Shown here: one piece after another, positions 7,640 to 26,255 of the stretch
Layout: each line of letters begins with the position of its first letter
How positions within the stretch are numbered: position 1 is the first letter of the stretch
Assembly (NCBI GenBank): GCA_944325945.1
Contig: CALVBW010000028.1
Location: 1-46,008, forward strand
DNA length: 46,008 bases
Reading direction: 5' to 3'
From: Candidatus Gastranaerophilales bacterium
GTDB taxonomy: Bacteria; Cyanobacteriota; Vampirovibrionia; Gastranaerophilales; Gastranaerophilaceae
The notes under the pieces: model-generated
What the model saw: only the letters and a program-made list of their open reading frames with translations
What the model was told of the DNA's origin: nothing
The model's database searches: none
Made by a program: the position numbers and the translations under genes

Positions 7640-8494
7640 TTAATACGGTAAGGATTCCCAGTAACCTTTAGTTTCATCATCGGGATTTATATTCATATGT
7701 GCGTAGTATGCGCATCCGACTCCGTTTCCGGTCTGTTTAGATTTTACCGAACAGGGTACTCCCCTTATAATTGTGTGAAGTCCTTGATTTGCAGCTTCTT
7801 CAAGCTCTTCTTCCGTATAAAGTTTTGACATTTTTTCCGGCAGTAAAACGTCATTATTATCTATATAAAAGTAAAAAATATCAAATCCGAGACGGTTTGG
7901 TTTTTTAATGCCGTTTGTATCAATTGCAAGTGTTATTTGAGCGGCATTGACCAGTATATTAACGCACATTCCGTTTGCCATGGCATTTTCAATAACTTCT
8001 TTACCTCCTGCCGTTAATGAAGTATAGGCGTCCTGCGTGTTGTTATAGTTTCTGATTTTAGCCGGATATTCGCATTTACCTATCACTTTTATATGGGATG
8101 AATTATTAAAAAGGTTGTATAATTCTTCCTTCCTATAATAATAGTTATCATCACCTAAATTACCGTGTGCTGTATAATATGTTTTTAATCCCGGTCCATG
8201 TTCCTGTTGAAGATAAAGAACGGACTGGCTGAGAAGTGAGTAAGCTGTTTTGAAACCGACTTGCAATTGCTTTGATTCAATTTTATGCATCAAAGTCGGA
8301 ATAGTCATAGCGGCGACAACGCCGATTATGCCGAGGGTGATTAAAACCTCAGCGAGGGTAAACGCAGCACGACGAATATTGTCAAACATGTCTACGTGCG
8401 TAGCACCTTCCGCCAGAGTAAACGCGGCTTTTTTAGAAGTGAATAAGTAAATAAGGGAATAAGTAAATAAGTTTTTTCTGTGAGCTACGCTCAC
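7640..8494 (-). CDS. Prepilin-like protein with poly-G upstream, frame open to the tract
   Basis: The frame encodes a prepilin-like protein with FTLAEVLITLGIIGVVAAM starting at residue 45 of the GTG-initiated form, then a helical spine and a C-terminal part with DTNGIKKPNRLGFDIFYF. The leader holds a duplicated cleavage-like motif: KKAAFTLAEGATHVD followed by RRAAFTLAEV. The GTG at 8494 has no Shine-Dalgarno. The frame stays open upstream through a REP palindrome pair to a run of ten G, beyond which a well-formed ATG at 8627 is one base out of frame; removing one G would give a 328-residue protein. An ATG at 8389 would give a normal 8-residue leader and is a real alternative, although its Shine-Dalgarno is poor. 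The gene is convergent with hydF and divergent from a winged-helix gene. Confidence 0.75.
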   Translation of the reverse strand: MSVAHRKNLFTYSLIYLFTSKKAAFTLAEGATHVDMFDNIRRAAFTLAEVLITLGIIGVVAAMTIPTLMHKIESKQLQVGFKTAYSLLSQSVLYLQQEHGPGLKTYYTAHGNLGDDNYYYRKEELYNLFNNSSHIKVIGKCEYPAKIRNYNNTQDAYTSLTAGGKEVIENAMANGMCVNILVNAAQITLAIDTNGIKKPNRLGFDIFYFYIDNNDVLLPEKMSKLYTEEELEEAANQGLHTIIRGVPCSVKSKQTGNGVGCAYYAHMNINPDDETKGYWESLPY

Positions 8495-8500
8495 ATATTT

Positions 8501-8562
8501 GTCATTCCGAACTAGTTTCGGAATCTCTTTATTATGAGATGCTGAAACTAGTTCAGCATGAC
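8501..8562. repeat. REP-like palindrome pair (two inverted 27-mers)
   Basis: Two copies of one 27-bp imperfect palindrome, 8501-8527 (GTCATTCCGAACTAG...) and 8536-8562 (reverse complement of GTCATGCTGAACTAG...), face each other across 8 bp. The same family occurs at 25175-25201, 25307-25333, 40993-41019 and 41323-41349. Here it is read through as codons in the extended prepilin frame (HAELVSASHNKEIPKLVRND on the minus strand). Confidence 0.85.
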
Positions 8563-8573
8563 CGGAGGTTAAG

Positions 8574-8627
8574 CTACTGCCCCCCCCCCTTGCGTGAAAA
8601 GTAGTCGTGATGCGTATTTGCGTCCAT
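8574..8627 (-). other. Short start segment ending just after poly-G (out of frame)
   Basis: GGAGG lies 6 nt before the ATG at 8627. The frame reads MDANTHHDYFSRKGGGQ and stops at TAG (8576-8574) immediately after the G-run. With nine G instead of ten (or twelve) the same start would continue into the prepilin frame without a stop. I interpret it as the initiation end of the prepilin gene in an off state. Confidence 0.6.
8580..8589 (-). repeat. G10 homopolymer tract (C10 on plus strand)
   Basis: Ten consecutive C on the plus strand form one of only two such long G/C runs in this AT-rich window; the other is at 24972-24980. Both lie about 30-45 bp inside a short start segment upstream of a prepilin frame, a position suited to slipped-strand mispairing. 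Confidence 0.9.
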
Positions 8628-15166: not shown

Positions 15167-15256
15167 AAATTTTATTTTCGTTGTGAATAATCAGCCGAAT
15201 AAAGTTTGAAATTTATTGAATAAAAAATAAAGATATTTTAAGAAAAAGTCATAAAC

Positions 15257-15649
15257 TGGAGACGGTGGGACTCGAACCCACGTCCAAAATGGACCAACAT
15301 AAACCTCTACGTGTGTAGATACCAATTTTCTCGACTAATTCAGGAAAGTATCACGACCCTTAAATCAGCCAGAGTATTTTTTCCGGAAATACATAACCTT
15401 TAATGGTTATCTTGATACGTCTACCATCATCAACGTACTGCGTCTTGCATAAGTGGACCCCAACAGCCGGCAAGCTGGGCTATTGAAGTGGCTGACTGCG
15501 TCTTACGCAGCAAGAGCGTATGCTCTTGAAAAATCAGCTTTAATTACGTTGTCTTTAGCATTTAATTTGCTATGCTCGTTGATAACCGAGAACAGCGCTC
15601 GGACACGCAGCTTATATCAATCATCATCCTGTCAAATCCGGACGTCCCC
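15257..15649 (-). ncRNA. ssrA: Transfer-messenger RNA (tmRNA)
   Basis: On the minus strand the 5' end GGGGACG pairs with the 3' end CGTCTCC over seven pairs (one G-U) to form the tRNA-like acceptor stem; the discriminator is A at 15257 and CCA is not encoded. The T-arm reads GGGTTCGAGTCCC. The open tag frame runs from GCT at 15559 to TAA at 15505-15503 and gives AKDNVIKADFSRAYALAA, ending in the expected ALAA degradation signal. The 393-nt one-piece form and several downstream hairpins (such as AACCATTAAAGGTT and the stem around TACACACGTAGA) fit the pseudoknot-rich tmRNA body. It rescues stalled ribosomes with SmpB. Confidence 0.96.
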
Positions 15650-21091: not shown

Positions 21092-21661
21092 TTAACGTAT
21101 TTTCCTTCCGACGGATAAACCTGCCGGTAAATTTATTACTACGTTTTCATAATCTGGATGTCCGGTTATAGCATCAATAAATTCTTTTGTTTTTTCTTTA
21201 TGTGAAAGAACATTGTCGCAGCATATAAATCCACCGGTTTTTAAATGGGTATGTATAAGATTAAAATAATCAATATACTCTCTTTTATTTGCATCAACAA
21301 ATGCAAAATCTATTTTGAAACTTTCCGGCAAATCCTTTAAAATGTCGCAGGCTGATCCTTGTACAATTGATATTACGTCGTTAATCCCGCAGGCTTCAAA
21401 ATTTTGACGTGCTATGGAAAACCTTTTTTCCCAGAATTCTATTGTTGTTAAATGTCCGCCGGTCTCTTTTAAGGCTTTTCCGAGCCAAATTCCAGAATAG
21501 CCGTTTGATGTCCCAATTTCCAGAGCATTCTGGCAATTGGCAGCTTTTATCAGTGTATATAAAAACTCTCCGGTTACTCTTGAAATATTCCAAAAGTTTT
21601 TTTGTGTTTTTTCAAGTTCAGACAGAATATTTTCAGTTGTATTATCAAAATATTTTATCAT
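21092..21661 (-). CDS. O-methyltransferase family 3 protein
   Basis: The 189-residue protein has the class I SAM-binding core of the caffeoyl-CoA O-methyltransferase-like family: ALEIGTSNGYSGIWLGKAL (motif I), TTIEFWEKRFSIARQNF, and DFAFVDANKREYIDYFNLI followed by GGFICCDNVL. Bacterial members include TrmR, which methylates 5-hydroxyuridine in tRNA; other members act on small catechols. Nothing in the sequence separates these options. The ATG overlaps the end of the beta-propeller gene by 4 bp, so it is the last gene of the grpE-dnaJ operon. Confidence 0.85.
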   Translation of the reverse strand: MIKYFDNTTENILSELEKTQKNFWNISRVTGEFLYTLIKAANCQNALEIGTSNGYSGIWLGKALKETGGHLTTIEFWEKRFSIARQNFEACGINDVISIVQGSACDILKDLPESFKIDFAFVDANKREYIDYFNLIHTHLKTGGFICCDNVLSHKEKTKEFIDAITGHPDYENVVINLPAGLSVGRKIR

Positions 21662-23088
21662 TTATTAATTTTTGGCACCTTATCTGTTACGACAATAGTC
21701 CTTATAGGAACTTCTATAGGGCTGACTTTTATTATTTGTTTTTTAGTCATATCCAAAACGCAGTATATTGAAGCACGTGTGTCGGAAATTATTGCCAGAT
21801 TTGTTTTGTCAACAGGATTAATGTTTGTTGCAAATCCGTTCGTATTTAAATAAATTGTATCCGTAAGCTCATCGGTCTGGGTATTTATAACCTGAATTAC
21901 ATTACCTTCTGCACCAAGAATAAACAGGTTGTTATCATAGGCGGTCATATCAACAGGTTTTGCGGTGATTTCCAGCTCGGCTATAAGACCGTTTGTGTCA
22001 TAATCTATTATTGCAAGGTGGTTTTTTGTACGGCTTGTTATGTACAATTTGTTATTATTAAATGCGATTCTTGATACATTGGGAAATTTTCCGATATCTT
22101 TTAAAAGATAATTGTTATCAAGTTCAATTGCCCATATTTCATTTGTTTTTTTGTCGGCGTAGAATATTTTTGTCCCGTCGTCGCTAAGGGTTAATCTTTC
22201 GCACATACCGTTTATTTTTATTTGTTTTGATAGTGTCATTGTTTCCAGATTAACTATATAGATGCTTGAATTCCCGGGACTTGAGATGTATGCGATTTTT
22301 CTGTCATTGTCTATCAGAATTTCGTCAGGAATTGTCGTAAAAAGTATTTCTTTTATAGCAGCTTCATCCGCCAGTGAAATAACATTTAAAGACGTACTGT
22401 TAAAAGATGTGACAAGCAAAAATTGATTATTAAATGCTTTCATATTATTCGGAACATAATTTTGTGAAAGTGCATAAGCCGGTGTTTTGCTTTCGGAATT
22501 TACTACCTGAATATTTTTTGAGTATCCTGTCGCAATATAAAAAGTTTTGTTTTTAAGCGCCGGTACCGGTGTTACGGTTGTTTGAACATTTGTGTGTTTA
22601 ATTTGAGGCACAGAAACTTTTAATACAGGGTTTGCATCAAGTGATATATTCAGGTTGCCTATAATACCTTTGAGATTTTCAGGAATGATTAATCCTCTCG
22701 GAACAAGCATATCCTGCGGCAAAAGTCCGTTTCTTATTTCTTCGGGAACATCTGTCGGGGATATAACTGTTTTTTTACCGTTTTTATCTTCAATTACTTT
22801 TAATAAAACATAATTATTGTTAAAAATTACGGCTTCCGGCTTATCTTTTAAAGTTTTGTTTGCGGGAATTGTGGATTTAATGGAAATATTATCCATATCT
22901 AAAGGCTTTGCCGGAAATAACGGCAGATAAAGAGTTGAATCCGGTAAAATTATTATTCCGTCAAAGCGAAATTCAGTTTTAGGAAAGGTTGAATTAATGT
23001 AATTTTGCATATTGGCAGGAATTTTTGCGGCAAAACTTATGTTTGCGCTCATAAATATTAATAAAAGTAATAATATAAATCTACGCAT
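21658..23088 (-). CDS. Secreted YncE-like (YVTN) beta-propeller protein
   Basis: The 476-residue protein starts MRRFILLLLLIFMSANISFA, a Sec signal peptide, then a 170-residue Pro-rich region, then about six to seven beta-propeller blades in the C-terminal 300 residues (for example IAYISSPGNSSIYIVNLETM and KLYITSRTKNHLAIIDYDTN). These are YVTN/YncE-type repeats, often found in surface or periplasmic binding proteins. No catalytic residues are apparent. It overlaps dnaJ by 8 bp and the methyltransferase by 4 bp, so its expression is tied to the chaperone operon. Confidence 0.85.
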   Translation of the reverse strand: MRRFILLLLLIFMSANISFAAKIPANMQNYINSTFPKTEFRFDGIIILPDSTLYLPLFPAKPLDMDNISIKSTIPANKTLKDKPEAVIFNNNYVLLKVIEDKNGKKTVISPTDVPEEIRNGLLPQDMLVPRGLIIPENLKGIIGNLNISLDANPVLKVSVPQIKHTNVQTTVTPVPALKNKTFYIATGYSKNIQVVNSESKTPAYALSQNYVPNNMKAFNNQFLLVTSFNSTSLNVISLADEAAIKEILFTTIPDEILIDNDRKIAYISSPGNSSIYIVNLETMTLSKQIKINGMCERLTLSDDGTKIFYADKKTNEIWAIELDNNYLLKDIGKFPNVSRIAFNNNKLYITSRTKNHLAIIDYDTNGLIAELEITAKPVDMTAYDNNLFILGAEGNVIQVINTQTDELTDTIYLNTNGFATNINPVDKTNLAIISDTRASIYCVLDMTKKQIIKVSPIEVPIRTIVVTDKVPKINK

Positions 23089-24889: not shown

Positions 24890-24918
24890 TTGACCGGATT
24901 GGTAAAAATTGTTATAAT
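24890..24918 (+). promoter_or_regulatory. Promoter for the second poly-G prepilin start segment
   Basis: TTGACC (24890-24895), a 17-nt spacer and TATAAT (24913-24918) are followed by AAGGAG (24933-24938) 6 nt before the ATG at 24945. This is a near-consensus expression signal driving a frame that stops after 15 codons in the sequence as given. Confidence 0.75.
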
Positions 24919-24944
24919 TATTTAACAAAAAGAAGGAGAAAGCT

Positions 24945-24992
24945 ATGGAAAACAAAAAGTTTAAAAACATCGGGGGGGGGCGACTCTCCTAG
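24945..24992 (+). other. Short start segment ending just after poly-G (out of frame)
   Basis: The ATG at 24945 with a strong Shine-Dalgarno reads MENKKFKNIGGGRLS and stops at TAG (24990-24992). With ten G instead of nine the frame would pass into the prepilin frame and run without a stop to 26143 (399 residues). It is interpreted as the true initiation end of the prepilin gene in an off state. Confidence 0.65.
24972..24980 (+). repeat. G9 homopolymer tract
   Basis: Nine consecutive G in an AT-rich region, inside the tenth to twelfth codons of the start segment at 24945. It has the same placement as the G10 tract at 8580-8589. Confidence 0.9.
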
Positions 24993-25174
24993 CCAGCGTA
25001 GCCGCTGGACCCAACCAACAGGAAGTTGGAGAAAATTTAACGGGTCATGAAATTAACAAGGGTTTTGGCGGTATTGGTTGTGTAAAGTTACTAAGATACT
25101 ATGGCACTAAGGCACTAAGAAGGAATATTTGTATTAGTAATGCCGACCAACACAGTTGTGGTCGAAGGGAGTCT

Positions 25175-25333
25175 GTCATTCTGAACTTGTTTCAGAATCT
25201 CAATAAAAATTTCAAGAGATTCTTCGCTGTTGCTCAGAATGACAAAAATACTATTTCTCGCCCTACGGGAGAGGGATTAAGGGAGATGGGGCTATCAGCT
25301 CATGATGAGATCCTGAAACGAGTTCAGGATGAC
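25175..25333. repeat. REP-like palindrome cluster
   Basis: Copies of the 27-bp palindrome family lie at 25175-25201 (GTCATTCTGAACTTG...) and, reversed, at 25307-25333 (ending GTTCAGGATGAC), with a degenerate reversed copy at 25216-25243. Between them, 25262-25292 has a different motif (CCCTACGGGAGAGGG followed by GGGAGATGGGG) resembling part of the insert in mfd. All are in frame with the prepilin coding sequence, giving peptide fragments such as VILNLFQNLNKN and DEILKRVQDDK. Confidence 0.82.
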
Positions 25334-26143
25334 AAAAAACCTCACTTCACTCACGTTAAAAAAGTCGCCTTCACACTCGCCGAAGTCCTTATAACCCTTG
25401 GCATCATCGGTATAGTTGCGGCAATCACAATTCCGACATTGATTGCGAATTATCAGGAAAAACAGACTGTGACAAAGCTGCAAAAAACCTATGCAACTTT
25501 AAAAAATGCATTTGAAATGGCAAAAATTGAGTATGGAGATTATGACACCTGGTCATGGAACCAGATTCCAACAACTAATGCTGAAAGAACACAGTACTTT
25601 TGGGAAACATATATTTTTCCGCATTTAAAGATTGCTAAAAAATGCTTTCCGATAACAACGGAATGTGTGGCAGATGATATTACAAGATTGAATGGTACGG
25701 CTGAATCAGTTGTAACATCTACACATGGTGCGTTTGTTTTGTATGACGGAACATCTGTTTATACGTGGGCAGGAGGTGATACATTTTATCCGCATATCTG
25801 GGTATTTGCGGATATTAATGGTAAAGCAAAGCCAAATGTGGTAGGTAAAGATATATTTACGATGTTCTTTTCCCCAAAAAATCCCGGGAATAGAATTGGC
25901 TCGTTTGATGACGATGATAATTTTGTTGATTCAGGAAAATTATTAACCCCTGCTTACGGATTAAGTTTGTATGGAGATGTAAACGGAGTTACCGTTGAAG
26001 ATCTTATGGACTCGAATTTTGTTCTGGAAATTGACACAGGTGCCAAACAAAAACACAGTTGTACTACTGACGGTTGGGGGTATATGTGCGGTGCGGCAAT
26101 AAAATTAAACGGCTGGAAATTCCCCGACGGCTATCCGAGATAA
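25187..26143 (+). CDS. Prepilin-like protein with poly-G upstream and REP-derived leader
   Basis: The frame encodes FTLAEVLITLGIIGIVAAI from residue 62 of the TTG-initiated form, a helical spine (NYQEKQTVTKLQKTYATLKNAFEMA), paired Cys residues and the family motif DINGKAKPNVVGKDIF. The TTG at 25187 has no Shine-Dalgarno and lies inside a REP palindrome, so it is unlikely to be the natural start. The frame is open back to 24965, through the G9 tract; the only well-formed start (24945) is one base out of frame. A one-G gain would give a leader of about 135 residues, far longer than normal prepilin leaders, so either the long leader is tolerated or the gene is silenced by insertions. A terminator follows. 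Confidence 0.75.
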   Translation: MFQNLNKNFKRFFAVAQNDKNTISRPTGEGLREMGLSAHDEILKRVQDDKKPHFTHVKKVAFTLAEVLITLGIIGIVAAITIPTLIANYQEKQTVTKLQKTYATLKNAFEMAKIEYGDYDTWSWNQIPTTNAERTQYFWETYIFPHLKIAKKCFPITTECVADDITRLNGTAESVVTSTHGAFVLYDGTSVYTWAGGDTFYPHIWVFADINGKAKPNVVGKDIFTMFFSPKNPGNRIGSFDDDDNFVDSGKLLTPAYGLSLYGDVNGVTVEDLMDSNFVLEIDTGAKQKHSCTTDGWGYMCGAAIKLNGWKFPDGYPR

Positions 26144-26168
26144 AAAAACTCCCCTAAGGGAGTTTTTT
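26143..26168 (+). terminator. Rho-independent terminator
   Basis: An 11-bp stem AAAAAACTCCC/GGGAGTTTTTT with a 4-nt loop directly follows the prepilin stop codon. Confidence 0.92.
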
Positions 26169-26255
26169 GTTTACATATTTTAAAATATTTACACCATAAT
26201 GTTGTCGTTGTATTATTATTTTATTAGATAATAACAGACTTTGAGGAATTAAAAA

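Follow-up and report, generated by a model that had tools for sequence, protein, structure and literature searches.

A type IV prepilin one base out of frame behind a G9 tract: one of dozens of starts probably gated by slippage in a family of Gastranaerophilales

Gastranaerophilales are common, uncultured gut relatives of cyanobacteria, whose surface is little known. In the window considered here (the whole stretch of 46,008 nucleotides that was analysed), a start codon preceded by a promoter and a Shine-Dalgarno sequence leads, through nine Gs, to a stop codon, while a type IV prepilin is encoded downstream in another frame. Are these two parts of a single gene, and if so, how would it be expressed? 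The features that bear on the question are the following.

24890-24918, plus strand: sigma-70-like promoter, TTGACC (24890-24895), 17 nt, TATAAT (24913-24918), by consensus match only
24933-24938, plus strand: Shine-Dalgarno AAGGAG, 6 nt before ATG 24945, as read from the sequence
24945-24992, plus strand: zero-frame leader ORF of 15 amino acids, MENKKFKNIGGGRLS, from ATG 24945 to the in-frame TAG 24990-24992
24972-24980, plus strand: G9 tract, a single G short of leader-prepilin fusion
24980-26143, plus strand: shifted frame (GCG ACT CTC CTA ...), 387 codons and a stop, entered via one extra G or a -1 frameshift
25046-25366, plus strand: mosaic of dispersed genomic repeats, with many partial copies genome-wide; the shifted frame runs through it without a stop, as a spacer ahead of the prepilin signal
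25367-25384, plus strand: prepilin peptidase-type signal A/FTLAE (class III signal peptide), which matches TIGR02532 at its cut-off
25370-26143, plus strand: mature type IV pilin-like protein, stop included, from a model and weak structural matches
26149-26170, plus strand: probable terminator ACTCCCCTAAGGGAGTTTTTTG, read from the sequence and absent from the terminator list of the scan
8580-8589, minus strand: second tract, G10, class B (see below), after leader ATG 8627 (MDANTHHDYFSRK); OFF, needing one G fewer
7640-8579, minus strand: prepilin frame behind the second tract, the prepilin ending at 7640

The initial annotation had reported the promoter, the AAGGAG, the ATG, the tract and the TAG, all of which hold base by base, as does its statement that the +1 frame is open through the prepilin to 26143. 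The promoter scan gives 11 of 12 matches to the consensus, with a TG ahead of the second hexamer, and a comparable arrangement of Shine-Dalgarno and ATG recurs in other tract copies. Lengthening G9 to G10 in silico yields a protein of 399 amino acids, MENKKFKNIGGGATLLASVAAG...AFTLAEVLITLGIIGIVAA..., which reads ...GGGATLLASVAAGPNQQEVGENLTGHEINK across the tract and ends at 26143; one extra G thus fuses the start to the prepilin, as had been proposed. That leader and prepilin form one protein is shown directly by L361, the syntenic orthologue of a sister species, which also precedes the murA-like gene; it is 88% identical and in frame through GGGGGGGGAG, and other copies, with G10, are in frame too. 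The starts within the prepilin frame had been described as lacking a Shine-Dalgarno, one of them inside a repeat, and we agree: the only competing start is TTG 25187 (318 amino acids), upstream of which no good Shine-Dalgarno is seen, and the repeat is the mosaic listed above. Internal initiation at this TTG is disfavoured for that reason and because the leader frame is conserved.

Chance does not explain the tract, since 0.02 runs of G9 or C9 are expected in the window from its base composition, and since the only two G/C runs of at least 7 (24972-24980, plus, and 8589-8580, minus) each lie at the start of a prepilin gene. The window prepilin stands alone among housekeeping genes, with grpE and dnaJ (minus strand) on its left and the murA-like gene, of the EPSP synthase family, and mfd on its right. 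Elsewhere in the window, the prepilin at 7640-8579 (minus) has a duplicated signal motif, AAFTLAEGATHVDMFDNIRRAAFTLAEVLITL, a tmRNA gene with the tag AKDNVIKADFSRAYALAA lies at 15254-15649 (minus), and 21658-23088 (minus), adjoining dnaJ, codes for a 476-residue protein with no Pfam match at 1e-5.

The product carries a class III signal with a hydrophobic segment after G/A|FTLAE, as expected of a type IV prepilin. The signal is probably cleaved before F, to give a mature protein that starts with FTLAEVLI; the residues F, T, L, A, E, V, L and I are invariant in 40 relatives, in 12 of which PF07963 is found. The AlphaFold2 model of the mature protein (mean pLDDT 89.6) has a long N-terminal helix (4-56) and a beta sheet. 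Its structural matches to PAK pilin (1oqw) and to pseudopilins are weak, with Z of 3-4 only, and Foldseek returned nothing significant against solved structures. The product presumably forms pili.

The window gene is not alone. There are 83 prepilin-like matches in the genome, and at least 50 tracts of 9-11 G or C that leave a prepilin one base out of frame; for some of those that lie at the end of a contig, the prepilin may be on another contig. These tracts form three classes. Class A is that of the window copy: the sequence 3' of its tract recurs many times in the genome, and the class A copies that we read there nearly all have a leader of 27 nt and carry G9 in 32 of 35 cases, with a zero-frame stop three codons on, most of them sharing both the leader length and the stop codon position of the window copy. 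Class A tracts of this genome are G9, with one G10, and an additional G opens 200-430 codons into the prepilin. Two class A copies in the set are in frame, L089 by a G10 and L066 by an extra A in the leader. Class B has leaders like MGANTHHDYFSL and tracts of G11, A+G10 or AGGA+G8, whose total length is equal in most copies. Class C has C9 after the leader MLKKVVQKAVQIVA, and its seven members (L092, L093, L095, L096, L493, L506 and L511) are all one C short. Of the prepilin matches that lack the class A downstream sequence in this set, 20 were read: 15 have tracts, four have no tract or start plainly with MKK-FTLAE, and one (L497) has an interrupted, in-frame leader. In other copies, as in the window, no stop interrupts the shifted frame within the repeats that separate tract and FTLAE, which gives leaders of up to about 200 residues ahead of the signal; several contigs terminate within these repeats.

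The relatives that carry names are metagenome assemblies of Candidatus Gastranaerophilales. Of 286 genomes of the order, 107 have a generic pattern (Shine-Dalgarno, ATG, 9-39 nt, at least 8 Gs), with a maximum of 84 copies in one genome. Almost all of the 107 belong to this family, and the pattern is near zero in the rest of the order; the reversed pattern, used as a control, is near zero as well. Outside the genus, the exact sequence downstream of class A tracts is almost absent. Prepilins lie downstream of most tracts that we read. According to a reading of the sequence without family search, a few tracts (L277, L279, L280, L278, L286, L168 and L290) precede genes that resemble acyltransferases, FkbM-type methyltransferases or sugar epimerases. 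In the genus g41, some tracts (L354-L360 in genome G266; L342-L344 and L349 in G123) lie in a short upstream ORF that is followed by a terminator-like hairpin and then by a prepilin with its own Shine-Dalgarno, an arrangement that is possibly a frame-dependent attenuator. The tract module was not found in the viral contigs scanned.

How often are such genes in frame? ON or OFF was called only where the prepilin motif sits in one open frame, and each tract length is one consensus value of an assembly, from copies that are related and not independent. With this definition, 42 of 319 copies pooled from 33 genomes are in frame (13%), with tract lengths of 7-15. The direction of the offset depends on length: among the out-of-frame copies of this set, 217 tracts of at most 10 need one base more and 20 one fewer, against 6 and 34, respectively, for tracts of at least 11 (Fisher p about 1e-23, only indicative since the copies are related). 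The same rule holds within the genome of the window, where G9 and C9 need +1 and G11 needs -1, and between genera. The genus set has 157 copies, one of which comes from another genus; 132 of them lack one G, 21 are in frame and 4 have one G too many. The main class of the genus consists of 86% G9 and 11% G10; G8, the other OFF length, is found in 2 of 142 class A copies. The check that the initial annotation called for in related genomes thus gave length variants, in-frame G10 among them, and a shifted frame open to the prepilin motif in the 157 copies of the genus set, where the other two frames are open as far in 7 of 314 cases.

The out-of-frame phase is conserved to an unusual degree. In genera g1 and g7 together, 190 of 222 copies are one base short. 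In g7 (G207 and two relatives), 61 of 65 copies are one short, versus 25 expected by independence, across three combinations of leader length and downstream frame. The phase is also preserved where substitutions have changed the length of the tract, as in G11, A+G10 and AGGA+G8 of class B in this genome, and in G013. In most copies, a zero-frame stop follows 0-4 codons past the tract. On the other hand, near-identical paralogues in other genera can differ in both length and phase (in G058, G009 and G041), and G9, G10, G11 and G12 all occur in G058. A single mutational equilibrium at G9 is ruled out, since class B of the same genome is at G11. Loss of mismatch repair as the cause of the many tracts is also ruled out: MutS is found in 116 of 117 genomes, with or without tracts.

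The prepilins that are out of frame are nonetheless maintained. Between the window gene and its orthologue L361, which are discordant (one OFF, the other ON), dS is 0.64 and dN 0.07. Among the tested orthologue pairs with dN above zero, dN/dS is 0.06-0.33, and one further pair shows no amino-acid change at all; most of these pairs are OFF in the assemblies of both species. Frame-shifted prepilins are under purifying selection. The ON/OFF state is discordant in 9 of 79 orthologue pairs, and in two close orthologue pairs both members have G10. Orthologous prepilins that are up to 98% identical can carry unrelated leaders (L198/L231, L116/L226 and other pairs): judging from these sequences, 5' ends seem to be exchanged between copies near the tract.

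We argue that the explanation with somewhat better than even chances is a default-OFF switch, most likely by replication slippage, that acts on dozens of type IV prepilins. A ribosome that initiates at ATG 24945 would traverse the nine Gs and stop three codons later, and in a tract with one more G the same start would run on into the prepilin. The window gate would be one of dozens of equivalents, each on a different prepilin and normally one base from in frame. Replication slippage would most likely add or remove the base, and only a minority of the pilins would be ON at any time (about 13% of the assembly copies), which would amount to a default-OFF, bet-hedging surface repertoire. Slippage may lengthen short tracts and shorten long ones, towards about G10-G11, and lineages that come in frame would usually be lost, ON cells being selected against; the combination of length-biased slippage and loss of in-frame lineages would pin the tracts one step from in frame, on the side from which they started.

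Two properties of slipped-strand switches are seen here: a homopolymer of at least 8 in the 5' coding region sets the frame, and both lengths and ON/OFF states vary among related copies and species. Replication slippage accounts for the in-frame copies, for the length variation in several genera and for the length-direction rule, and the discordant orthologues, the low dN/dS, the shifted frame open in 157 copies and the precedent of Bifidobacterium breve support it further. In B. breve UCC2003, the sortase-dependent pilus loci bbr_0113 and bbr_1889 have intragenic tracts of G11 and G10 and are annotated one base out of frame; deep sequencing showed that they are turned ON by replication slippage in vivo, with enrichment in mice, where the G11 tract was shortened four or more times as often as it was lengthened (PMC9187656). 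The likeness is close (a gut commensal, pilus genes split by a G tract one base out of frame), but B. breve has two sortase-pilus loci per genome, whereas here dozens of type IV prepilins are concerned, and they are known from assemblies only.

The comparison with Campylobacter is less favourable. Its phasome likewise consists of G9 and G10 tracts in ORFs, dozens per AT-rich genome, in surface genes; 9G makes up 52-53% and 10G 26-30% of the tracts, and the ON fraction is reported to be near the neutral expectation (PMC6321876). Here, in contrast, one gene family dominates, the main class of the genus is 86% G9 and about 13% of copies are ON overall. The initial annotation saw in the window gene a candidate for phase variation: the fusion frame is real and paralogues do differ in length, but this is a family-wide system and not one gene, and its lengths are narrower and more biased towards OFF than those of Campylobacter. 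This narrowness and the two close orthologue pairs that are both G10 count against the slippage switch, and the presence of MutS, which should slow mononucleotide slippage, weakens the idea that switching is fast. The conservation of phase in g7, its persistence through substitutions, the rarity of G8 and the nearby zero-frame stop fit with selection on the out-of-frame phase itself.

These last observations also lend weight to a serious rival, programmed slippage at the RNA level, which we consider possible, if less likely: the tract (G9, C9 or G10-G13) would be kept out of frame on purpose, and slippage of RNA polymerase or ribosomal frameshifting would provide every cell with a little prepilin at a fixed level. 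A uniform phase (190 of 222 one short in g1 and g7) that survives changes of leader, frame and tract sequence, the stop shortly past the tract, the scarcity of G8, the strength of purifying selection where both species are OFF and the presence of MutS all speak for it. However, the direction needed differs within one genome, the G9, C9 and G10 classes having a -1 offset and the G11-G13 classes a +1 offset, so that one -1 ribosomal mechanism cannot serve all tracts. The downstream RNA structure that usually, if not universally, stimulates programmed -1 frameshifting was not conserved over the 157 copies (mean z -0.04), and the local hairpin that pairs the G run with CUCUCC in the window copy does not stand out from shuffled sequences (z -1.1). 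In addition, in-frame and interrupted in-frame copies exist, and long, unstable tracts of G12-G13 make a poor device for a steady low output. The strong form of this proposal, that the whole family deliberately keeps dozens of prepilins per genome one base off and relies for their expression on programmed slippage, transcriptional or ribosomal, and not on DNA switching, appears to us nearly as likely as the rival itself; it would be, to our knowledge, the largest set of recoded genes in any bacterium, and the first on G/C runs. Programmed slippage is known from the A9 run of Thermus dnaX, a case of transcriptional slippage, and from IS elements (PMC1088944), which resemble our loci in having a homopolymer of some nine bases, a conserved ORF that lies downstream in another frame, and a zero-frame stop close by. 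Transcriptional slippage is, however, documented mainly on A/T runs (PMC1088944), whereas the runs here are of G or C, with offsets in both directions and no stimulatory structure found.

A silent archive, in which the out-of-frame prepilins would serve as donors for recombination with a small number of expressed, in-frame loci, is improbable. It resembles what occurs in Neisseria, with its large repertoire of pilin copies of which few are expressed, and the exchange of 5' ends suggested by prepilins up to 98% identical with unrelated leaders, together with the minority of copies in frame, speaks for it. But the silent cassettes of Neisseria have no promoters and usually no Shine-Dalgarno, start codon or leader of their own, and act by recombination, while here a Shine-Dalgarno, a start codon and a leader belong to each copy that we examined, and a promoter to the window copy as well; nor does an archive need a precise offset of one base. 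Decaying pseudogenes or a sequencing error at G9, already disfavoured, are very improbable since, a few truly broken copies aside (L079, L082, L201 and L204), the same offset is found in dozens of genes and genomes, the frames are open over 10-200 codons with dN/dS well below 1, and the random stops that decay requires in the shifted frames are not seen.

The default-OFF slippage switch thus remains our preferred reading. For Gastranaerophilales, the open literature yielded no paper on either phase variation or slippage, most subscription journals being outside this coverage. With up to 84 gated starts per genome, this frame-gated surface repertoire would be among the largest on record, and most of its genes would be overlooked or cut short by automated annotation. 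The hundreds of tracts found in these genomes provide a natural test bed for separating replication slippage from programmed slippage.
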